Positions 16,341 through 28,410 of a DNA stretch of 49,513 bases are shown here, piece after piece (within the stretch, counting starts at the first letter, position 1; each line of letters starts with the position of its first letter). The notes beneath the pieces are model-generated. The model did not search any database. It worked only from the letters and a program-made list of their open reading frames with translations, and was not told the DNA's origin. Origin of the DNA: Treponema sp. (lineage in GTDB: Bacteria > Spirochaetota > Spirochaetia > Treponematales > Breznakiellaceae). The stretch is taken from contig JAIRLU010000119.1 of assembly GCA_031259215.1 (NCBI GenBank), positions 1 through 49,513 of the forward strand. Direction: 5' to 3'. Both the position numbers and the translations under genes were made by a program.

Positions 16341-17405
16341 CTATTCTTCTGCTTCCTCGCCGCTACTCGCACCCTCAGTAGGAGTAAAGGTGGTCTCAGT
16401 AGCCTGCCGCTGATTATCCAGATACCGCTGAATTTGAGCTTGGCCAAGCCGCTGCAATTCTCCGGTCTTCCGGGCAGTCTCCCGATCCTGGATAATATTC
16501 CAGAGTGATTCATCTTCAATATCCCGTTCAGTATCAAGGACCGCCTTATCGTAGATGACTTTAACATCTTTGAAATACCCGATAAAATCTCCACCGGGGC
16601 TAGAGGCACTCCGCTGAATGAGGAATCCGCCAAACTTTACAAAGGGCGTTGAATCAGGATAGATGGGATACAAGCGTAATTCCCGATTCCGAACATTCTG
16701 CACATACGCAGGATTATCCCACCGGAGTTCTCCCCAACCTTCAAAGTTAAGATACCCCATGAAGTAGGTCTTTTCGTTCCCTTTGTCATCAATCAAGATC
16801 ACCGAAAGGGCATGGGGAAAATTGAGTCCATAGGCATTTACGGCGATTGACCTAATCGTTCCGACGTTTTTGATCACCCCTAAACCACCGGTAGGTTTAC
16901 CTTCATCATCAGGTTCACCCTCAAAGCGACTCGGCCCGGTAACCCCTGATTCTTCACCAGCTTCGATATTTCCATCATCATCAATGGTTGCCGGAGGTTC
17001 AAACGCGGGAATATCAAAGGGCGGCTTCACAATGGCCCAAGAATTAAAGGCCTCCACCGGGAAGTGGATACGAACACCCATCACCTTTTCCCATTCTTTA
17101 GAGGGCGCCTCTTTAGTATAACTAAGATGCTTGGTAGTGATATTCTGCGCAGAAGATGAGAATACCACATCCCAATTAGTTATAGCCAAAGAAGATTTCA
17201 TCTCTACCTTTTGCCGGGCGGTGAAATTGCTGGTGGCCTCATTGGTAAAGTCCATCAAGGTCGCACGGTTTTGAGTGGGCACGTCATTTTGATCGGGAAC
17301 AATATCAGCCGTTAATTTTGAAAAATCGATAAGCACCGACTCCTCAGCAAACACCGATCCCATTGCCAATAACGTGACGACGACAAGAATGAAGATACGT
17401 TTCAT
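16341..17405 (-). CDS. flaA: Flagellar filament outer layer (sheath) protein FlaA
   Basis: Signal peptide MKRIFILVVVTLLAMGSVFAEE; VLIDFSKL..; WEKVMGVRIHFPVEAFNSWAIVKPPFDIPAFEP; LSVILIDDKGNEKTYFMGYLNFEGWGELRWDNP. Confidence 0.9.
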   Translation of the reverse strand: MKRIFILVVVTLLAMGSVFAEESVLIDFSKLTADIVPDQNDVPTQNRATLMDFTNEATSNFTARQKVEMKSSLAITNWDVVFSSSAQNITTKHLSYTKEAPSKEWEKVMGVRIHFPVEAFNSWAIVKPPFDIPAFEPPATIDDDGNIEAGEESGVTGPSRFEGEPDDEGKPTGGLGVIKNVGTIRSIAVNAYGLNFPHALSVILIDDKGNEKTYFMGYLNFEGWGELRWDNPAYVQNVRNRELRLYPIYPDSTPFVKFGGFLIQRSASSPGGDFIGYFKDVKVIYDKAVLDTERDIEDESLWNIIQDRETARKTGELQRLGQAQIQRYLDNQRQATETTFTPTEGASSGEEAEE

Positions 17406-17569: not shown

Positions 17570-18103
17570 TCAGGCATCCTCTCCCTCATCGGTTTGTATG
17601 ACCCGTATCTCATGGCCGTAGATAAAAAGCTTGACCCTTTGCACCGAAGGAAAATTCCGCCGGATTCCCTGTTGGAGCGTTTCCAGGCCCCAAAAGACAT
17701 CCCTCCCCGGGGCTTCCACAAGGGGTAAGGCGGCGCTTTCCGAAAGATCCAGGTATACCACCGCATCTCGGTATAATAATGAACGAAGCCTCGTCTCTCG
17801 TGGAAACAAAGGCAGAGAATCCGGTACAATCGGTCCAAGGAGCGCCTCCTCTACATAGCGTCTGAGGGCAATTTCCTCTGTGGGGGCTCGGGAAAGCATA
17901 CGGTTTTCTACCACCGGTTTTCCATCCCCCAAGGTATAAAAGATAAAAGTCCGTCGCACCTGGTTTATGTGCCGGAATTGGATGAAGGTGAAGATGCCCA
18001 GCAGCAACAGGTAAACCACACGTCGAATATACGATTTTGTCCTAAAACCGCCCCTTTTTTTACTGTTTCTCGTACCACTACCTGCCATGCCCATTCTTTT
18101 CAT
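17570..18103 (-). CDS. GerMN-domain protein
   Basis: RRYVEEALLGPIVPDSLPLFPRETRLRSLLYRDAVVYLDLSESA...GLETLQQGIRRNFPSVQRVKLFIYGHE. Confidence 0.75.
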   Translation of the reverse strand: MKRMGMAGSGTRNSKKRGGFRTKSYIRRVVYLLLLGIFTFIQFRHINQVRRTFIFYTLGDGKPVVENRMLSRAPTEEIALRRYVEEALLGPIVPDSLPLFPRETRLRSLLYRDAVVYLDLSESAALPLVEAPGRDVFWGLETLQQGIRRNFPSVQRVKLFIYGHEIRVIQTDEGEDA

Positions 18104-18133: not shown

Positions 18134-19204
18134 CTACAACCCTTCAAACTCACCTACAAAATCCATAATACCCTTATATAAGGCTTCTGAAAAGTGCTGT
18201 ATGTAGGTTTCATCAGTCAAAAGCGTGGCATCCGTTTCATTACTGAGAAAGCCTAACTCCACCAGAACCGAAGGCATCCGGGCATTCCGGACTACAAACC
18301 ATTCCTCTGCCTTGATACCCCGGGAAGGAAAAGCGCTGCCCAGGGTTTCATCAAACCGTTTCATGATAGATTCGGCCATCCTGATACTTTCAGAGGTGAA
18401 TTCCTCTTCCAGCATGGCATTCAGAATGGGAATCACCTCTTGGGCATCCTTGTATTTCGACTGGTCAATGAGGGTCCGCCGGTATTCGGGATTGAGGTAC
18501 CACACTTCATAGCCCCGTACGTGTTTATTGAAGGATGCATTGGCATGGATGGAAATGAATACCGTGGCCTCGTTATCTTGCAGAGGAATCCCATTGGCTA
18601 TGGCTACCCGATCATCCAAGCTGATAAAGGTGTCCTGGTCCCGAGTTAATAAGACCTGTTTATCAGGAAAACTGCGGGAAAGCCGACTATGAAGGTCCTT
18701 GGAAACCTTGAGGACCAGGTCCTTTTCCTCCACCCGTAAGGATTTTCCGTCAATAGTATGGTTTCCCACGGCTCCGGTATCTTTACCGCCATGACCAGGA
18801 TCCACAATAATCGCGGCAATACGAAACTGAGCCGGCGCTTCCTGGGAACGGGCATCTTCTAGAACCCTGATGAGGGTACCCACAAAGGCTTGGGGAAACT
18901 GCAGGGTTCCTTGCTCAAGGAAGGGGGACGGAAGGGAGAGTATTTCCTTACCGTTAAGGATAACCAGACCCGTTTCACCGGGCATCCCAACCCGGAAAGC
19001 TATGTACTGATCTGCCCATGAAAAGACTCCGGCCTGGAAAAAGGGATCCCAGCGGAATGTGGCTGTATTTCCCAGGGAACCGAGGTTTTTGAGGGTTTCA
19101 TCTAAGGTGAGGGTCTTCTCATCCCCAAAGCCCACTATTTGTGCCGATAGCAAGAGCAGGTTGGAAAACAAGAGACCTATCAAGAAACGCCGGTTATGCA
19201 TCAA
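18134..19204 (-). CDS. N-acetylmuramoyl-L-alanine amidase (Amidase_3)
   Basis: IIVDPGHGGKDTGAVG..., VFISIHANAS, RMPSVLVELGFLSNETDATLL. Confidence 0.9.
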   Translation of the reverse strand: MMHNRRFLIGLLFSNLLLLSAQIVGFGDEKTLTLDETLKNLGSLGNTATFRWDPFFQAGVFSWADQYIAFRVGMPGETGLVILNGKEILSLPSPFLEQGTLQFPQAFVGTLIRVLEDARSQEAPAQFRIAAIIVDPGHGGKDTGAVGNHTIDGKSLRVEEKDLVLKVSKDLHSRLSRSFPDKQVLLTRDQDTFISLDDRVAIANGIPLQDNEATVFISIHANASFNKHVRGYEVWYLNPEYRRTLIDQSKYKDAQEVIPILNAMLEEEFTSESIRMAESIMKRFDETLGSAFPSRGIKAEEWFVVRNARMPSVLVELGFLSNETDATLLTDETYIQHFSEALYKGIMDFVGEFEGL

Positions 19205-19412: not shown

Positions 19413-21035
19413 TCAACAGGAATGGAACGGTATCAGGGTATCTACCATATATACCGCCCCTTGGTATCCTCCCCGGATCAACGCTGCCCAAAAACGGCGG
19501 CCCAGAACCAGGGTTCCTGGTTCCCGAATCTTAGCCGGAGCATCTGCCCCGGCTTCCTCCCATAGGGGAAGGGGAAGCTCAGTGATTGCCCGGACCGCTT
19601 CAAGGCTTTCTTCCACGGTCCTTCCCATATAATCCCGCAAGTCTGATTCGATCAAGGGCTGAAACCGAAGAATTCCCACCTGGGACTTTTCAAGAGACTC
19701 CTTAATCCTTGCCGGCTCATATTCCGGTTCCGGGAAAGCCGCGAGGAGAGAACGAAGGGACGGGGAAACTCTAAATGCCCCCGGGGGAAACCCTTGGTCC
19801 TGGGCATCAGAAGCGAGGAATTCCTCGGTTTCCCTATCCGGCGCCTCAAGGCGGATCAAGACCAAACGAGCAGCCTGTTCCGCTGCACCTACCGCGGCTT
19901 CCCGTGTCGGAGCAGCGCTGATACTATTCCCACATTTGCTTACGTTATTTTCAGGAAACCGGACCCGGGTTCCCGGCTCAATCCGGAGGAACAGATCTCG
20001 TACATAGGTAACGGATTTGGCCTCTTCAATGCCATGAATACTCCGAACCGTTCCGGGGATGGAAATAAACGCCCGTTCCGCGCTGGTCCACTGACGGATC
20101 GGCTCAAGGCCTTTGGGGGGCCTCCCTAAAGCGATCTGGATGGCTCCCTGGGTAACTTCCACCCCTGAGGAGTAGGGGTAGGTCCAGCCTGACATATACC
20201 CCCCGGAAAGGCGAGCCGCGATTTCCCCTATCATAGGCCCTTGGGAGGTGAGTTTCATATCTCCCTTTGCCGCTCCATTGGTGATACCCAAGGCCCTGAT
20301 CCCTGCCCGAAAGACCGCAAGGAGGAGTTCCGTCGCGGCCGTGTTCAGGGCGGTAGGCATGGTATGGCCCATTTCAATGAAATAGGGAGGGAAAAAGATA
20401 TGCCGGTCCGCTACACCGTAAATGCGGATATCCCCTTGGTATACCAAGGCGTCTACCGAAAATTCAGGCCCTTCCATGTACGCTTCCAGGATAACCCGAT
20501 TGGTTCGGGAGAAGTTCAGCGCATCAGCCACCGCTGCCTTGAGCATTTCAGGGCCGTCAACCCTGCAGCAGCCCCGGGCGCCCATATTGTCCACAGGCTT
20601 AACCACCAGAGGATACCCAAAAGGAGGAGCAAACTCCGAATCCGGCACCCCCTCCACTACTATGAATGCAGGAGAAGGGAGTCCTGCCGCTTCGAAGCAC
20701 CGGCGCATCCGTTCCTTATCCGAGGCATTGAGGGCAGCCTCGTAAGGGATCCCAGGAAGCCCTACTTGGGCTGCAACCCACGCGACGGTAGCAGAAAAAT
20801 CGGTTCCTGCAGTCATGATCCCCCCCAATCCTCCCTGGGCTTTAAGGGACATGCCCAAGGCTGCAATGCCCTCTTGGTCCTTTAGATCGATCCGCTCAAA
20901 TCGATCCGCTAAAGAGACACAGGGAGCATGAGGATCCGCATCCACCACCACGGTTTCAAGCCCTAATGCCTTGGCAATTCTGATAGCAGGTCCCTGCATC
21001 ACCCCTGCACCCAGGATCATTAATCGTTCTTGCAT
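19413..21035 (-). CDS. ATP-grasp domain protein with a C-terminal extension
   Basis: MQERLMILGAGVMQGPAIRIAKALGLETVVVDADPHAP; ASDKERMRRCFEAAGLPSPAF; FGYPLVVKPVDNMGARGC. GGGAG precedes the ATG at 21035. Confidence 0.85.
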   Translation of the reverse strand: MQERLMILGAGVMQGPAIRIAKALGLETVVVDADPHAPCVSLADRFERIDLKDQEGIAALGMSLKAQGGLGGIMTAGTDFSATVAWVAAQVGLPGIPYEAALNASDKERMRRCFEAAGLPSPAFIVVEGVPDSEFAPPFGYPLVVKPVDNMGARGCCRVDGPEMLKAAVADALNFSRTNRVILEAYMEGPEFSVDALVYQGDIRIYGVADRHIFFPPYFIEMGHTMPTALNTAATELLLAVFRAGIRALGITNGAAKGDMKLTSQGPMIGEIAARLSGGYMSGWTYPYSSGVEVTQGAIQIALGRPPKGLEPIRQWTSAERAFISIPGTVRSIHGIEEAKSVTYVRDLFLRIEPGTRVRFPENNVSKCGNSISAAPTREAAVGAAEQAARLVLIRLEAPDRETEEFLASDAQDQGFPPGAFRVSPSLRSLLAAFPEPEYEPARIKESLEKSQVGILRFQPLIESDLRDYMGRTVEESLEAVRAITELPLPLWEEAGADAPAKIREPGTLVLGRRFWAALIRGGYQGAVYMVDTLIPFHSC

Positions 21036-21050
21036 AGCATCTCCCACCTA

Positions 21051-23036
21051 CTAATTTCCTAATTTCATAACAGTCCGCTCTTTGACCGTTGGTTTTTTGA
21101 CTGCATACACCTCGAAGGTATCGCCCAGATGAAACATACGGCTTATCCAGAGGAATAAACCGTATACCCTACGGTTTTTTTTCCGGGCTTCACCCAAAAA
21201 CCTGCCTACCAGGGGAAACCGTTCCGGATGATGGCCGGAAATAACTACCTTTTTAACGTGAAACCCAAAACGTTTGAGCATGCTCCCGGTCCGAGCGGGC
21301 TGCCACAGGGTCCAATGATCCGGCGGACTTTGTTCCAGGAAACGTTGGAAGGACTTGCGGCCTGATATACCCGTGGCAGACGGGGTTGAAAAGGCCAATA
21401 CCCCACCGGGTTTGAGGAGTCGGTACAGTTCGGTCAGTACCGCTCCAGGTCTTTCAAAATGTTCCAGCACATACCAAAGGGAGATGAGGTCAAACCCCGC
21501 GGCCCCTACTTCCTCAGGTACCGGAGTTTCCGGGAAAAACCCTCGGAAGGCCGGAAGGTGCAGTTCCTCCCGCACATACCGGACTGCATCTTCTGCGGGG
21601 TCCATGCCAAAAGGCAAAAACCCTTCTTCCCGGGCAGCCACCAGGAAAGGGCCATAGGCACAGCCTATATCCAGGAGCCGAGCTTGGGTCTTGGAAGGAT
21701 CTGCTCCCCCGCTTCTTCGGGACCGGTAGAGGATCTGCTTACCATAACGAAGCCGTTTTTTTCCATACTGTACCAGATTCGGAAAATCTTCCAGGTAGGT
21801 TTTGCCGTATTGCTGCTTATAAAAGGAAAAAAAATAATCCCCCTCATATTCGATGGGAGGCAACGTGGAACGGAGGAGGTACACCACACCGCAGCGCCGA
21901 CACCGCCGGTAGGTCCGATCCAGGAATCGGGCGCAGACCGGATCCTGAGCAGGGAGCGTACCGCCGCAGACAGGACAGGCTGCAGGTACCCGGAGGGTAT
22001 AGCTCTTTACCAACTCCCCCAGCCCAGGGGAGGAAGTACCTGCATCCCCTGGCGGATGCAGCCCGTAACGCACCCGTAGCCGCTCACAGCGATCCCCCAA
22101 CGCGTTAAGGGCTTCATCGTTGATCTGAAGAAATTTCCGGTTCTTGGGATGCTGCCTATCAAGCACCGCCGTATAAAGGATGCGTCGTAAACGGCGCGCT
22201 CCTTTTTCCCCCATACCCCCTGACATAAACCCCGTATGGACCGCGAGTTTTTCGTGATAGGTACCAGGGGATAGAAGCAGTACCGGCACCCGGGCCGCAA
22301 GGCTTTCAAAGGCCGTGAGGCCAAAATGGGTAATCACCAGATCATAGTAGGCAAGCTGTTCTCGGAGTTCTGCCATGCCTTCTACAACCTGGATTCCTGC
22401 GGCCGTGAGGACTGCCCTATGCCGTTCCTTTATGTCGGCCCTATGAAACCCGCCGAATAGGGCGGTAATCTCTGTTTGGCCTGGTACCTGCAAGGCAAGG
22501 CAAGTCGGAAGCGTAAGCCCTCCAGGATCTTCAGCGCCGAAACTCACCAGGATCTTCAGGGGACCTCTCCGGGGAGCAGCAAAGGAAGGCCGCCGGTTTT
22601 TCGGCAGCGGGAGGAGGCTTGGGGCGAGGATGTTGGGAGGAACCCGGCCCGGAGGACCAGGAAGCAGATCCAAGAGAAAATCAAAGCGGTCCCGCTGCGG
22701 TCCGCCTTCATCAATACCAATAAGGGGAGCTAAGGCCCCCCATTGGGCGCATTCTTCAGGGGCGGTTCTGAAACGATCCAGGATAATACATGCCCAGCGC
22801 CGTTTCCTGATACTTTCCGTATCCCCTATAAGCCAAGAGGCTGCAATCCTTGCTTCTTGCGTCATAACCAGGGAACTATGCACCAAAACATCCTGGGGTT
22901 CAAGCTCAGGAATATAGAGATACGCCTCCTCTTTCAGGGAACGGAGGGACCGGACCAGAACCAGGGATCGGACCAGATGCCCTCCCCCACGGCCTTTTTC
23001 AAAGGTGGAAACCACCAGGAGGGGGCCCTGCATCAT
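21051..23036 (-). CDS. SpsG/PseG-like glycosyltransferase-fold domain fused to a zinc-ribbon SAM methyltransferase
   Basis: N-terminus GRGGGHLVRSLVLVRSL..ILVSFGAEDPGG..ADIKERHRAVL..YYDLVITHFGLTAFESLAARVPVLLL; middle CPVCG...CRRCGVVY; C-terminus LLDIGCAYGPFLVAAREEGF..DLISLWYVLEHFERPGAVLTELYRLLKPGGVLAFSTPS. Confidence 0.85.
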   Translation of the reverse strand: MMQGPLLVVSTFEKGRGGGHLVRSLVLVRSLRSLKEEAYLYIPELEPQDVLVHSSLVMTQEARIAASWLIGDTESIRKRRWACIILDRFRTAPEECAQWGALAPLIGIDEGGPQRDRFDFLLDLLPGPPGRVPPNILAPSLLPLPKNRRPSFAAPRRGPLKILVSFGAEDPGGLTLPTCLALQVPGQTEITALFGGFHRADIKERHRAVLTAAGIQVVEGMAELREQLAYYDLVITHFGLTAFESLAARVPVLLLSPGTYHEKLAVHTGFMSGGMGEKGARRLRRILYTAVLDRQHPKNRKFLQINDEALNALGDRCERLRVRYGLHPPGDAGTSSPGLGELVKSYTLRVPAACPVCGGTLPAQDPVCARFLDRTYRRCRRCGVVYLLRSTLPPIEYEGDYFFSFYKQQYGKTYLEDFPNLVQYGKKRLRYGKQILYRSRRSGGADPSKTQARLLDIGCAYGPFLVAAREEGFLPFGMDPAEDAVRYVREELHLPAFRGFFPETPVPEEVGAAGFDLISLWYVLEHFERPGAVLTELYRLLKPGGVLAFSTPSATGISGRKSFQRFLEQSPPDHWTLWQPARTGSMLKRFGFHVKKVVISGHHPERFPLVGRFLGEARKKNRRVYGLFLWISRMFHLGDTFEVYAVKKPTVKERTVMKLGN

Positions 23037-23734
23037 GGCAGTGCACCGGTTAAAAGTTTGCCGCCCCTGCGGTATGCCGCGATGATGGTCTCTCCCTGAA
23101 AACGCTCCTCTCCATACGCTGCCAGAACCTCGAACAAGACCTGGGCTCGCCGGTAATCTTCCGGGGTATCAAGGCTTATCCGCAAGGAGGGAGCCTGCCA
23201 TATTAGTGGAGCCAAGGGCCGGTGGAGCTGAAACAGCTCAGGATGGGTATATACATAGGGACACACATGTTCCCGTTCAGCCGGGAGGGAAGCATCCCGT
23301 TCAGCCCGGAGCAGGGCTTCGGCAGCTACCGATTCCACCCCTGCCCCATAGGGCAGCCCGCTATAACCGGCATAATCAGCCTTGAGGCTCACCGCTTCCT
23401 GGTTGAGGGTATTCGCCGCATCCACAAACACAAAGGGATTGTCCCCGGTGGCTCGGATAAGGCGGTCTATGCCAAAACGGCGTACTGCGGCGCAATACCG
23501 GCCCAGTACGTCTTCCTTAGATCCTACTACCAGGTCAAAGCCCGCTTGTTCTGCCCAGGGACCAAAGGCTCCAACACAGTCCTCGGGACAGGCAAGCACA
23601 TACCGATCACACCACACCCCTTTGAGGGCCTCCATGACCAGCAGGATCAGCGGCTTTCCTCCCAGCGGTAGGAGGGCTTTTCCCGGAAGGCGGGTCGAGT
23701 CAAGCCGCGCCTGAAGTATCACCGCGGTCATCAT
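23033..23734 (-). CDS. SpsF-like cytidylyltransferase family protein
   Basis: MTAVILQARLDSTRLPGKALLPLGGKPLI..EDVLGRYCAAVRRFGIDRLIRATGDNPFV is the CMP-sugar synthetase (SpsF) signature. Confidence 0.88.
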   Translation of the reverse strand: MMTAVILQARLDSTRLPGKALLPLGGKPLILLVMEALKGVWCDRYVLACPEDCVGAFGPWAEQAGFDLVVGSKEDVLGRYCAAVRRFGIDRLIRATGDNPFVFVDAANTLNQEAVSLKADYAGYSGLPYGAGVESVAAEALLRAERDASLPAEREHVCPYVYTHPELFQLHRPLAPLIWQAPSLRISLDTPEDYRRAQVLFEVLAAYGEERFQGETIIAAYRRGGKLLTGALP

Positions 23735-24855
23735 TCCAAGGGACCTGACCCTTCCGTACGTTCCGGTTCACCTTTCGGATGTTCAAACTTGAGCACTTCC
23801 ATTCCTGTGGTTTCCGTTCTTCCTTCTTCTATTATCCGGGTATGATCCTCGGTTAGTTCGCCCATATCCTCCCAAAGCTCGGTTATGGCCCGGGCATCAC
23901 TGCGGAACCGGTACCGGTTCGTCTTTACCCATTGACGTCCCTGGGAAAAATCATCCCATGCCGCCAAAAGGGTCCTCCCACTCCGCCAAAAATACCGGGG
24001 GAAAGACCGAAGCGGAATCGTGGCAGAATCCCCTCGGAAAACCGGAGCCAGATTCTTGAGATAAAAACGCCGGTAACTTTCATCGGCCGTACTATCCTCA
24101 GGAGGGGTTTCTCCGTCATAGGAAAGGCGGATAAGCTGGGTGGCGCCAATCTGTTCTCCCCAGAGATAGGCCCGGAATCCAAAATCCATCAGTTGCCAAT
24201 GGGTGCTTTTTAAGGTACTGTCAAAGCCTCCCAGTCGGATAAACCGGGTCCGGTCATAGATACCGACGCCATCAAAGGGATACAGAGAGGGCTGTCCTTC
24301 TTTAGCAGGGGTAAAGAAGAGGGGTTTGACCGTGGCACGGAACACTGCCGGCGCGATGAGGGTGGGCAGGGTTTCAAAATGGGAATTTTGAATCAAAGGG
24401 ACCGTGCAAAGGCGTTTATACTGGCTTTTTTGCCCTTCTCCCTTGTACAATTCTTCCTTACCCAGCCGAAGCCGTTCCTCCATTCGGGAAGCTCCGCCGC
24501 TATGGAGGATCCGCAGATCGTTCCGTAATACAAAAAAAAGGGGGCTCGAGAGTTCCGATGCGGCCAGATTGATCTGTTCCCCAATACTGACCGCTTCCTT
24601 TAACAAAATAAACCGAACCTGCGGAAAAAGCCCTGAGAGTTCTTCCACATCGTACCGTTCCTGGGGGCCTTCCATGGAGATGATATAATCAAATCCAATC
24701 TTTTCCAGTTCCTGAAAACGGGTACGCCGAGGATACCGGCCTCCGCCTCTGCCCAGAAGCACCGCGGAAAGCCCTGTAGAAGCTCTCCGTTCCGTACCCC
24801 CTACGGCAGTATATGAAGGCAGGGTGTCGTTAAAAGTTGTAGGTATAGTATTCAT
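23731..24855 (-). CDS. Glycosyltransferase (GT-A-like) family protein
   Basis: GLFPQVRFILLKEAVSIGEQINLAASELSSPLFFVLRNDLRIL; DGVGIYDRTRFIRLGGFDSTLKSTHWQLMDFGFRAYLWG. Start at ATG 24855 (GGGG upstream) preferred over the ORF track start at 25029. Confidence 0.6.
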   Translation of the reverse strand: MNTIPTTFNDTLPSYTAVGGTERRASTGLSAVLLGRGGGRYPRRTRFQELEKIGFDYIISMEGPQERYDVEELSGLFPQVRFILLKEAVSIGEQINLAASELSSPLFFVLRNDLRILHSGGASRMEERLRLGKEELYKGEGQKSQYKRLCTVPLIQNSHFETLPTLIAPAVFRATVKPLFFTPAKEGQPSLYPFDGVGIYDRTRFIRLGGFDSTLKSTHWQLMDFGFRAYLWGEQIGATQLIRLSYDGETPPEDSTADESYRRFYLKNLAPVFRGDSATIPLRSFPRYFWRSGRTLLAAWDDFSQGRQWVKTNRYRFRSDARAITELWEDMGELTEDHTRIIEEGRTETTGMEVLKFEHPKGEPERTEGSGPLE

Positions 24856-26383
24856 CACACCCCGCGCATATTCCCGTGTAAGCCGGTATACACTGTTCTC
24901 GATAGAGCAGTGTACCCCGGGACCAGATGGTTTCCAGGGGATCCGAAAAAACATTGCCCCAGATCCCTTTTTCCGATGCGCCGGTGAGGGCCGCGAGATC
25001 TTCCCTGCAGCAGGGAACGGTTCCGTCAAGGAGTATCACCATATCCCGCAGGAGGTGCCAACAGGGCTGACGTTTTACCGGCGAGAGATCCGCTGCCCCC
25101 AAGGCAGGTAGGACCCCGCAAAAAGGATCGTATTTTTGAATAATGATACGCGCCCCCGCTTCTTTCCAGGAGCGATAGAATTGTTCAATATCATCTTCAA
25201 AGCCTTTGACTCTGACTGCCTGTACATAGGCGTCCTGGGGAAATAAGCGGATCAGGGTTTTGGCATTTGCCAGGGCCTCCGCATACCCAGGCCCCCGAAT
25301 TTCCCGGTACCGTGCCGGATTCTGGGCATCCAGGGCAAGTATCCAGGAAACCGGCGCCATTCCATTACGCCGGGGTGGGGCTTTTTGGGCTTCCGCTGCA
25401 AGTTGCTCCAACTCATCGGTTTTCCAGCCCAGCCCAGCAGTTTCAACAATGAGGGATAGTTCAGGCTGGGAGAGGACCCGGCGAATAAGGTCCAGCTTTT
25501 CCGGGTGCAGGCTTAGTTCCCCCCAGAGAGAAAGATCGATCACCCCATCCCCGGCAAAGGGGATGATACGGGCGAGGAGATCTTCAAACCGATCCTTTTC
25601 TAGGAAGTCGGTTCTTTGGGTAAGATCCCGTGAACCCTGAAATCGTGGATACGGACAAAGGGTACAGCGCTGGGGACAAGGGCCGGCTACCTGAATACTA
25701 AAGAAATTGGGAAGCGTCCGCAGGAGTTCAGGTTTTTCGGTAATAAGGATTTCCGCATCCTGGGCCCTGGAAAAACCTGCTTCCGCAAACCGGGTCAAAA
25801 GGAGGAGGTTTCGCTTGGAATCTGCCGTAAGGCTCAGGCGGTGGCACCGGAGATCCACCGGGGAAAGGACCGTTTCAATATCAAAGGCATTGATATCTTT
25901 TTGTATAACCGAAAACAGGAGATCCCGCTCTACCGGGCCGTCCGCATCTCCCAGGATTTTTGAGAGAAGTCCCCCCATACCTGGAGCGAGAATCTCCGGA
26001 GAAAGTCCGTAGGGCCAGCCATCGGCATAAGAATATTCCGCGGCATACTGGAGATGCCGTTCTGCCAGAGCCGTAGCCAGCTCCGGATCCAAGAAAGGAC
26101 AGTCCGCCCAGGCAAAATAGGTAATATCAAACCCTGCCGATTCCCTCGCGAGGGTATCCAGCAGGAGCTTCTTGGTCCATTGCGCGGCCTGAATCAGCTC
26201 AATACCATGAACTCCATCCGCCCGCCGGATCGGCGTGGTTTGAGTCAAGAGAAGAACTTTACGGGTATCCGGGAACGCAGCCGCCCGTTCCACGGCAAGG
26301 GCAAGGGCACTTTTTTTTGAAAAGACCTGCTCATAAGCCACCTCGGTAAGGCTGCCCCCATATAATACTACCAGGGCATTCAT
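24830..26383 (-). CDS. Radical SAM/SPASM protein with an N-terminal nucleotidyltransferase-like region
   Basis: Cx3Cx2C (GPCPQRCTLCPYPR); C-terminal VILLDGTVPCCREDL...IWGNVFSDPLETIW...CAGCDEYYTYNF; N-terminus MNALVVLYGGSLTEVAYEQVFSKKSALALAVERAAAF. Confidence 0.8.
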   Translation of the reverse strand: MNALVVLYGGSLTEVAYEQVFSKKSALALAVERAAAFPDTRKVLLLTQTTPIRRADGVHGIELIQAAQWTKKLLLDTLARESAGFDITYFAWADCPFLDPELATALAERHLQYAAEYSYADGWPYGLSPEILAPGMGGLLSKILGDADGPVERDLLFSVIQKDINAFDIETVLSPVDLRCHRLSLTADSKRNLLLLTRFAEAGFSRAQDAEILITEKPELLRTLPNFFSIQVAGPCPQRCTLCPYPRFQGSRDLTQRTDFLEKDRFEDLLARIIPFAGDGVIDLSLWGELSLHPEKLDLIRRVLSQPELSLIVETAGLGWKTDELEQLAAEAQKAPPRRNGMAPVSWILALDAQNPARYREIRGPGYAEALANAKTLIRLFPQDAYVQAVRVKGFEDDIEQFYRSWKEAGARIIIQKYDPFCGVLPALGAADLSPVKRQPCWHLLRDMVILLDGTVPCCREDLAALTGASEKGIWGNVFSDPLETIWSRGTLLYREQCIPAYTGICAGCDEYYTYNF

Positions 26384-26551: not shown

Positions 26552-27295
26552 TTAGGGAGCCAGTCTAAACAGGCCAAAGGATGCAGCCAGATGTATATCC
26601 GCGGTTTCAGTTACCGATGCGAGATTATCAATCCATGATATCCACCGAGGCTCTTCGCCATCAGTGCTCCAATCAGTACGGAAAAGCCCTACGAGAAAGG
26701 AGGTCTCGTTGTCCTCAGTGAGCAGGCCCAGTTCCCGGAATGATTCCAGTGGAATGACGCCCTCTACGGAATAGCGGCCGTCAAAAATTCTGCCCACCAC
26801 TTGCTGGTCGGTAAAGGCCCAGTCATTATCCTGATCCCGAAGATAATAGACTACCGAATAATCATGCACATGCCCCAATGCATCAATGGAAACCACATAA
26901 TACGGAGGCAGTTCACCCTCCAGGGGCCGGTCTATTTGATGAGAAGCAAAAAACAGATGTACCGCATCTAAACTATCAACTCCTTCTTCATCCTCCACTT
27001 CTTCTGCAGATACGATATCTTCATCTTCAAGGACAAAGGAGAAATAAAAGTTATCTGCATCATGAAAGGCTTTAAATACCGTTGCAGGAGCCACATCTTC
27101 TTCCCAAGGTAGCACAAAATTACCGATAGCCGGTATCCTGTCCCACACTCGCTCGTCCGCAACACCGTCAAGTACGAACACCGCTTCTTCACGATTAACC
27201 ACATCATAGGTTCCCGCGAAAACCGTTCCGACTGCACCGATTAGCACCATAGCTAATACCCATCTTCTTAACATGTAATCGATCCTCCGATACAT
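26552..27295 (-). CDS. Secreted CBM9-like/carbohydrate-binding-type protein
   Basis: Signal peptide; FVLDGVADERVWDRIPAIGNFV...TVFKAFHDADNFYFSFVLEDEDI...; CBM9-like fold pattern. Confidence 0.65.
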   Translation of the reverse strand: MYRRIDYMLRRWVLAMVLIGAVGTVFAGTYDVVNREEAVFVLDGVADERVWDRIPAIGNFVLPWEEDVAPATVFKAFHDADNFYFSFVLEDEDIVSAEEVEDEEGVDSLDAVHLFFASHQIDRPLEGELPPYYVVSIDALGHVHDYSVVYYLRDQDNDWAFTDQQVVGRIFDGRYSVEGVIPLESFRELGLLTEDNETSFLVGLFRTDWSTDGEEPRWISWIDNLASVTETADIHLAASFGLFRLAP

Positions 27296-27549: not shown

Positions 27550-28410
27550 TTATTGCAGCAATTGGAGAATACCCTGGCTGCGCTGATTAGCCTGAGCCAA
27601 CATAGCCGTACCAGCCTGACTAATGATCTGATTCTTGGTAAAGGAAACCATTTCACTCGCCATGTTGGCGTCCCGGATACGGGATTCAGAGGCTTGCAGG
27701 TTTTCCGCTCCTATATCAATGCCCCGGATCGCCTGTTCTAAGCGGTTCTGGTACGCTCCCAGATCTGCCCGCTGTTTACTGACCCGTTTAAGGGCTTCGT
27801 CGAGGGTTCCCAAAGCCCGATTGGCACTATCCGGATCCCCAAGGGCAAGCAAGGAATCGTCTCCCACATTCCGAACCCCCAAGGCCTTGGCGGTCATAGT
27901 GCTGATAAACACCTGTTCCCGCTGATCCATGTTAGCCCCGATGTGGAGCCACAGCGAAGCAGTAACCACATTTTCACCCCCTTCCCGGGCAAATCGACCG
28001 GTGAGTAGGTTCATCCCATTGAATTGGGCATGGGAAGCAACCCGATCCAATTCGTCGATAAGCGCCGATACTTCGATCTGAATATACGTCCGGTCTTCTT
28101 CCGTATAAATCCCGTTGGAAGACTGGACCGCTAACTCGCGAATCCGCTGTAAGATATCCTGGGTTTCCTGGAGATACCCCTCGGTGGTCTGAATAAACGA
28201 AATTCCATTCTGCGCATTGGCAGATGCCATGTTCAAACCCCGAATTTGACTCCGCAGCTTCTCGGAAACTGCAAGACCCGAAGGATCATCCCCGGATCGG
28301 TTGATCCGCAAACCGCTCGACAATTTTTCAATGTTCTTTTCAAGCGCGGTCTGGGTGGATTTAAGGGACCTATCGGCAAACATAGCACTTATGTTGTGAT
28401 TAATGATCAT
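27550..28410 (-). CDS. flaB: Flagellin FlaB (periplasmic flagellar filament core)
   Basis: [59 protein letters not shown]...; C-terminal [25 protein letters not shown]. Confidence 0.97.

Follow-up and report, generated by a model that had tools for sequence, protein, structure and literature searches.

The window analysed here is the whole 49,513-nt stretch of contig C223 from a spirochaete metagenome-assembled genome (MAG; 2.73 Mb, 77% complete). The named relatives closest to this MAG are other Treponema MAGs and Breznakiella homolactica, presumably spirochaetes of termite guts. The window carries a block of five minus-strand open reading frames (ORFs), designated A to E, which very probably (we put the probability at about 0.8) constitutes part of a cytoplasmic nonulosonate pathway of the pseudaminic acid type serving flagellin glycosylation. 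The assignment draws on gene content, synteny, co-occurrence, motifs and predicted folds, from which we infer the enzyme activities, the order of the steps and FlaB as the target. The ligase, the methyltransferase and the radical S-adenosylmethionine (SAM) protein of the block are most readily understood as a variant module for acyl tailoring on a pathway resembling that of pseudaminic acid. The initial annotation, made from the sequence alone, had combined the SpsF-type, PseG-like/methyltransferase, glycosyltransferase A (GT-A), ATP-grasp and radical SAM parts into an activated-sugar pathway tied to the flagellar filament, a proposal supported by the results below. Its description of five packed genes with overlapping or abutting ends was confirmed for all ORFs and overlaps:

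24830..26383, minus strand: gene A, spiro-SPASM protein, 517 aa (TIGR04321, PF13186, weak PF04055, BtrN profile match)
23731..24855, minus strand: gene B, GT-A-fold protein, 374 aa (AlphaFold model and Foldseek)
23033..23734, minus strand: gene C, SpsF/PseF-type cytidylyltransferase, 233 aa (PF02348, PDB 6oew, motifs)
21051..23036, minus strand: gene D, PseG-like domain and zinc-ribbon SAM methyltransferase (TIGR03590, PF13489, PDB 3hbm)
19413..21047, minus strand: gene E, ATP-grasp carboxylate-amine ligase of the L-amino-acid-ligase type, 544 aa (PF13535, PF18603, PDB 3vot)

In the proposed pathway, PseB- and PseC-like enzymes encoded elsewhere in the genome would make a UDP (uridine diphosphate)-4-amino-4,6-dideoxy sugar, to the free amine of which E, replacing PseH, would attach an acid, probably of the polyhydroxy or alpha-hydroxy kind. 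Of the two halves of D, the methyltransferase would O-methylate the acyl group and the PseG domain would remove UDP, after which a NeuB/PseI synthase, also encoded elsewhere, would condense the sugar with phosphoenolpyruvate and C would make the cytidine monophosphate (CMP)-nonulosonate. Maf transferases, likewise encoded outside the window, would finally move the nonulosonate to serine or threonine residues of FlaB, the likely substrate. The translationally coupled A and B would work alongside these enzymes; A may tailor the sugar or its acyl group where the radical site is intact and serve as a non-radical partner where it is lost. On balance we regard E as the probable PseH substitute, and the acyl group is somewhat favoured as the target of the D methyltransferase.

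Gene order across the spirochaetes

Stretches of up to 20 kb around the spiro-SPASM gene from 56 spirochaete genomes were searched with the proteins of the window. Of the 48 class-Spirochaetia loci, 38 have the entire order A-B-C-D-E-amidase-(GerMN)-FlaA, and two more are cut by contig ends; this far exceeds chance. The block thereby passes the part of the refuting condition of the initial annotation that concerns conservation in relatives. C and D form a single ORF (SpsF-SpsG-methyltransferase) in most Treponema-type loci, and this fusion supports a shared pathway. The neighbours of the block in the window are as follows:

16341..17405, minus strand: FlaA, flagellar filament sheath protein, the conserved block end (PF04620, 1.4e-69)
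17570..18103, minus strand: GerMN-like membrane-anchored protein, a conserved neighbour (syntenic homologues in 36 of the 56 loci)
18134..19204, minus strand: N-acetylmuramoyl-L-alanine amidase, a conserved neighbour on the flaA side (PF01520, 1.4e-47; synteny)
26552-27295: secreted protein encoded between flaB and the block, in the window's genus only, with a CBM9 match under the threshold
27550..28410, minus strand: FlaB flagellin, upstream of the block (PF00669/PF00700)

The block had been presented in the initial annotation as lying between flaA and flaB. The link with flaA is conserved, but FlaB and the CBM9-like gene adjoin the block only in the window's genus (the window and locus L032), so linkage to flaB as a general feature was rejected. 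In Leptospira the FlaB1 glycans probably bridge the core and the sheath of the filament (PMC13144727), and with such a bridge the linkage of the block to flaA makes sense.

In the T. denticola-like and T. pallidum-like genomes flaA keeps the amidase-GerMN-FlaA unit and is preceded by a gene in the position of the GerMN-like one. The genome G165 is T. denticola ATCC 35405, as judged by an exact match to two published primers, and in this species flaA is co-transcribed with its upstream genes (PMC9481697). Outside the class, A was found either alone or with C only in Leptospira- and Brachyspira-type genomes. Two loci from one genus of the window's family (L037 and L043, from genomes G295 and G359) have only A and B together, with C, D and E not found within about 8 kb downstream.

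Occurrence together with flagellin

Spiro-SPASM is above the cut-off in 291 of the 393 sampled genomes of the phylum. In a hand-picked panel of 80 genomes (69 flagellated and 11 flagellin-less), the presence of flagellin was compared with that of spiro-SPASM, NeuB, PseB-like protein, ligase E, Maf-type PF01973 and PseH. Spiro-SPASM was found in 64/69 flagellated genomes, E in 65/69 and PF01973 in 66/69, all three being present in 0/11 flagellin-less ones, while the counts were 65/69 and 2/11 for NeuB and 63/69 and 3/11 for PseB-like protein. NeuB accompanies the block in a nearly one-to-one fashion, and PF01973 is over the cut-off in 66/66 flagellated non-Borrelia genomes and in 0/14 others. 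Three flagellated Borrelia-like genomes are without all five proteins and are the sole flagellated panel members without Maf; the remaining two flagellated genomes without spiro-SPASM are the MAGs G321 and G317, the former of which retains E near a contig end. PseH is over the cut-off in 0/80 genomes, and the T. pallidum-type genome gave no PseH match whatsoever.

The flagellin-less genomes fall into at least three groups (f12, part of f9 and part of f4), f4 and f9 being families in which flagellated genomes carrying the set also occur. That flagella-less spirochaetes and Borrelia lack the set fits a role in flagellin glycosylation. Weak spiro-SPASM matches in flagellin-less genomes (E 1e-4 to 1e-9), all far under the cut-off, were treated as other radical SAM proteins.

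Occurrence also bears on the possibility that the product of the block is a nonulosonate-type sugar destined for an envelope polysaccharide or an outer-surface glycan and not for flagellin, the linkage to flaA being old synteny without function. SpsF/SpsG-type genes do serve polysaccharides too, Leptospira has separate nonulosonate clusters (PMC3438082), and this explanation would also suit the unrelated amidase and GerMN-like genes within the unit and the separation of the block from flaA in T. denticola and T. pallidum. However, the flagellin-less spirochaetes, which are still enveloped, are without A, E and Maf in every tested case, and the T. pallidum-type genome retains A to D, E, NeuB and Maf, although T. 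pallidum is not known to have lipopolysaccharide. We consider an envelope product improbable.

Domain content of genes B to E

Gene B has no Pfam or NCBIfam match. Its AlphaFold model (predicted local distance difference test score, pLDDT, 84) was matched by Foldseek to polypeptide GalNAc-transferases with a best E of 2e-12 and a template modelling (TM) score of about 0.5. The relatives of B share a conserved start and a WQ..DFG.R..LWGE block; a search for a metal-binding DxD/DxH motif found a W-N/S-D stretch which is common but not invariant, and the GT-A assignment rests on the predicted fold. B may be a transferase for an added sugar or a partner of A, and the Maf proteins are the likelier flagellin transferases.

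Gene C matches PF02348 (2.6e-22), and its best solved relative is the Leptospira cytidylyltransferase 6oew (6e-39). The motifs QxRlxSxRLPxK, RxTxDNP, EH and RxTxDtxxD are intact, and there is no match to the PseF equivalog model. In gene D, residues of about 1-330 make up a PseG-like nucleotide-sugar hydrolase domain (D1) with the conserved GxGHxxR motif, and residues of about 350-650 a zinc-ribbon SAM methyltransferase (PF13489, 1.9e-22).

Gene E combines ATP-grasp_4 (PF13535, 48.5 vs 27 bits) and LAL_C2 (PF18603, 62 vs 29.4 bits) domains and matches the L-amino acid ligase 3vot at 4.2e-39. L-amino-acid ligases form a bond between a carboxylate and an amine. Outside the class Spirochaetia E is a protein of 720-800 aa (L235:6170-8341, L236:6413-8659). 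The C-terminal half of these homologues is a flavin mononucleotide-dependent alpha-hydroxy-acid dehydrogenase in the two lineages scanned, a fusion that was counted in favour of the nonulosonate pathway.

Probable pathway genes elsewhere in the genome

A NeuB/PseI-type synthase with an SAF domain is encoded on contig C217 (locus L137, 1032-2839; PF03102, 9e-64), scoring below both the NeuB and the PseI equivalog cut-offs. In the window's genus its gene is divergent from and adjoins fliS; FlaG/FliD as neighbours of NeuB in treponemes were dropped after the sequences had been read. Contig C150 (L138, 5246-12400) codes for a LoaP antiterminator, a PseB-like dehydratase, a PseC-like aminotransferase and three xanthine-dehydrogenase-like subunits. 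PseB and PseC are the best models for the dehydratase and the aminotransferase, under the equivalog cut-offs (170 vs 408 and 314 vs 424 bits, respectively). The T. pallidum-type genome has a corresponding set from the PseB-like gene onwards (L136, 8264-14592), which places a molybdopterin-type oxidoreductase in a probable flagellin-sugar operon.

Contig C225 (L242, 7249-12994) carries an MptE-like/Maf operon adjoining two proteins without a Pfam match, which resembles the operons of T. denticola and T. pallidum (L244, L245); the Maf_flag10_N and FlagModPseD matches of the Maf proteins of the window genome are weak.

The initial annotation had seen no synthase in the window and had suggested chemistry beyond the standard nonulosonate pathways. 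This argument is not supported and was rejected: the same genome encodes the NeuB/PseI synthase outside the window, along with Maf and with PseB- and PseC-like proteins, and the block and NeuB tend to occur together.

Comparison with known glycosylation systems

The reference system is the pseudaminic-acid flagellin glycosylation of Campylobacter and Helicobacter (PseB-C-H-G-I-F with Maf/PseD/PseE). Like it, the window genome encodes a dehydratase, a DegT aminotransferase, a PseG-like hydrolase, a NeuB-family synthase, a cytidylyltransferase and a Maf-type transferase, and their occurrence tracks flagellin. Unlike it, the genome has no PseH at the cut-off, with an ATP-grasp ligase and a methyltransferase instead; PseF and PseG are represented by distant SpsF/SpsG-type versions, which are often fused, spiro-SPASM and the GT-A protein are extra, and the genes are spread over several loci.

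The T. denticola glycan is reportedly a pseudaminic acid that bears one acetyl group and, on N7, a 2-methoxy-4,5,6-trihydroxyhexanoyl group. The FlaB proteins of this species carry a 450.2-Da glycan which is required for filament assembly and motility (PMC9481697). Arithmetic on the reported structure gives 274.12 (mono-acetylated core) + 176.07 (methoxy-trihydroxyhexanoyl) = 450.18 Da, in agreement with 450.2. A methylated acyl group on the amine, together with the lack of PseH over the cut-off, is what an ATP-grasp ligase and a methyltransferase would give. T. denticola is of the same order as the window species, and in its genome A, B and E occur along with a fused C-D gene, one NeuB and four Maf-like matches; unlike in the window, the block and E are away from flaA, and the spiro-SPASM protein of a close relative (L044) is without the radical SAM cysteines.

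Shewanella oneidensis offers an analogue that has been tested: its sfm genes, which include those for a PseI-like protein, an SAM methyltransferase and an ATP-grasp_4 ligase, are involved in a 274-Da nonulosonate with an O-methylated nitrogen-free moiety (PMC3765264). The Sfm system (sfmABCDE) shares these three components with the block, the likeness being one of domain content, but it has a thiamine pyrophosphate enzyme and an oxoacyl reductase, and neither a radical SAM/nucleotidyltransferase fusion nor a GT-A protein. The proposed pathway fits both the T. denticola FlaB glycan and the Sfm system. It predicts the enzymes that attach the unusual acyl group and methylate it, and puts a name to a nearly universal spirochaete gene set; we found no paper laying out the glycan-tailoring enzymes of spirochaetes as a set.

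Several points weigh against the assignment. The T. denticola-like and T. pallidum-like genomes keep A, B and C-D side by side but apart from flaA, with E elsewhere, so co-transcription with flaA is not general. The Fisher p-values for co-occurrence with flagellin (1e-5 to 1e-11) are descriptive only, because the genomes are related and shared ancestry inflates such statistics, the panel was picked by hand, and the thresholds applied to NeuB and PseB (E below 1e-40) were chosen after the scores had been viewed. The match of D1 to PseG is weak (TIGR03590, 6e-7, under the cut-off; PDB 3hbm, 6.5e-4) and, since PseB, PseC and PseI are under their equivalog cut-offs as well, the sugar may have the stereochemistry of pseudaminic, legionaminic or neuraminic acid. 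The case is weakest for the roles assigned to A and B.

A further possibility is that C is a Kdo (3-deoxy-D-manno-octulosonic acid)-type or other CMP-sugar synthetase and that the acidic glycan which the set builds on flagellin is not a nonulosonate. C does match KdsB models too, and 6oew is annotated just as a cytidylyltransferase. Nevertheless, the nearly one-to-one company of NeuB and the block, PseC as the best model of the aminotransferase and the fit of the T. denticola mass to a mono-acetylated pseudaminic-acid core (arithmetic on PMC9481697) make such a glycan decidedly improbable.

The spiro-SPASM protein

Protein A scores 564.9 bits against the TIGR04321 cut-off of 250 over residues 4-517. 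Residues 1-228 form a cytidylyltransferase-fold domain which, according to motif alignments, is without the RxxxRLPxK loop kept by C; its model (pLDDT 93) has 6oew as the top Foldseek match, with a TM score of 0.74. It is followed by the radical SAM domain (residues of about 230-400), with CxxxCxxC at C236/C240/C243, and by the twitch/SPASM domain (about 436-517), with cysteines C441, C459, C506 and C509. Among PDB profiles A matches BtrN, a radical SAM twitch-type aminocyclitol dehydrogenase, at 1.3e-12 across the radical core and the twitch, and the two proteins align in the radical SAM core, the twitch cysteines and the intervening GN..E..IW pattern. Unlike BtrN, A has the N-terminal pseudo-cytidylyltransferase domain, and many members of its family are without CxxxCxxC.

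The motif is intact in the A protein of the window and in 38 of 57 sequences and absent in the other 19, which include T. denticola-like, T. pallidum-like and Brachyspira-type proteins, among others. C441, C459 and C506 are kept in 57/57 sequences and C509 in 56/57. On a tree built leaving out the motif columns, the CxxxCxxC pattern needs about ten changes, at least four of them on well-supported branches, the direction not being given by the counts; loss is the plain reading because the motif is shared with BtrN. With the motif absent in so many proteins, the radical reaction cannot be the universally needed part of A in spirochaetes.

It is conceivable, though we hold this tentatively, that A tailors the sugar or the acyl group by radical chemistry where the motif is intact. 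Rather more speculative is the idea that A is the first radical SAM enzyme in the biosynthesis of a nonulosonate flagellin sugar, which would present its substrate on a dead cytidylyltransferase domain and which in several lineages, that of the syphilis treponeme among them, would have decayed into a partner that binds iron-sulphur but makes no radicals. If true, catalytic and pseudo-enzyme forms of a single pathway would make up a natural series. That spiro-SPASM is instead a SPASM-type maturase acting directly on flagellin or another protein, with the sugar genes as mere neighbours, is very improbable: many SPASM proteins do modify peptides and the family co-occurs with flagellin, but the closest solved relative is BtrN and no peptide maturase, A bears a sugar-nucleotidyltransferase-fold domain and its gene overlaps a GT-A gene by 26 nt, and in Leptospira-type genomes A stays paired with the cytidylyltransferase alone.

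The TIGR04321 family model states no function, and searches of the literature for spiro-SPASM, for TP0288/TP0562/TDE0958 or for radical SAM with flagellin or nonulosonic acids found nothing useful. What is new here is that spiro-SPASM is tied to the flagellin nonulosonate pathway, which would give an orphan radical SAM family a role, that it is a P-loop-less cytidylyltransferase paralogue joined to a BtrN-like radical SAM/twitch enzyme, and that CxxxCxxC is absent in a third of the sequences (19/57), including that of T. pallidum, with the twitch cysteines retained. The repeated lack of the motif in proteins that keep the auxiliary cysteines raises a testable question, namely what a radical SAM scaffold does once radical-making stops.

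Start sites and transcription signals

Within the block, A and B overlap by 26 nt, and B and C as well as C and D by 4 nt each. E starts either with GTG at 21047 or with ATG at 21035, leaving a gap of 3 or 15 nt after D, respectively. The listed TTG start of B at 25029 was rejected: the real start is the ATG at 24855, as this codon lies inside the conserved C-terminus of A (...CDEYYTYNF) and the homologous genes of many relatives likewise overlap by 26 nt, with B beginning MNTIP.

A terminator-like hairpin with 19 pairs is located directly after flaA (16293-16250). Just before flaA there is a strong sigma-70-like site, TTGACA-16-TATACT (17482-17455), so flaA may also have a promoter of its own.

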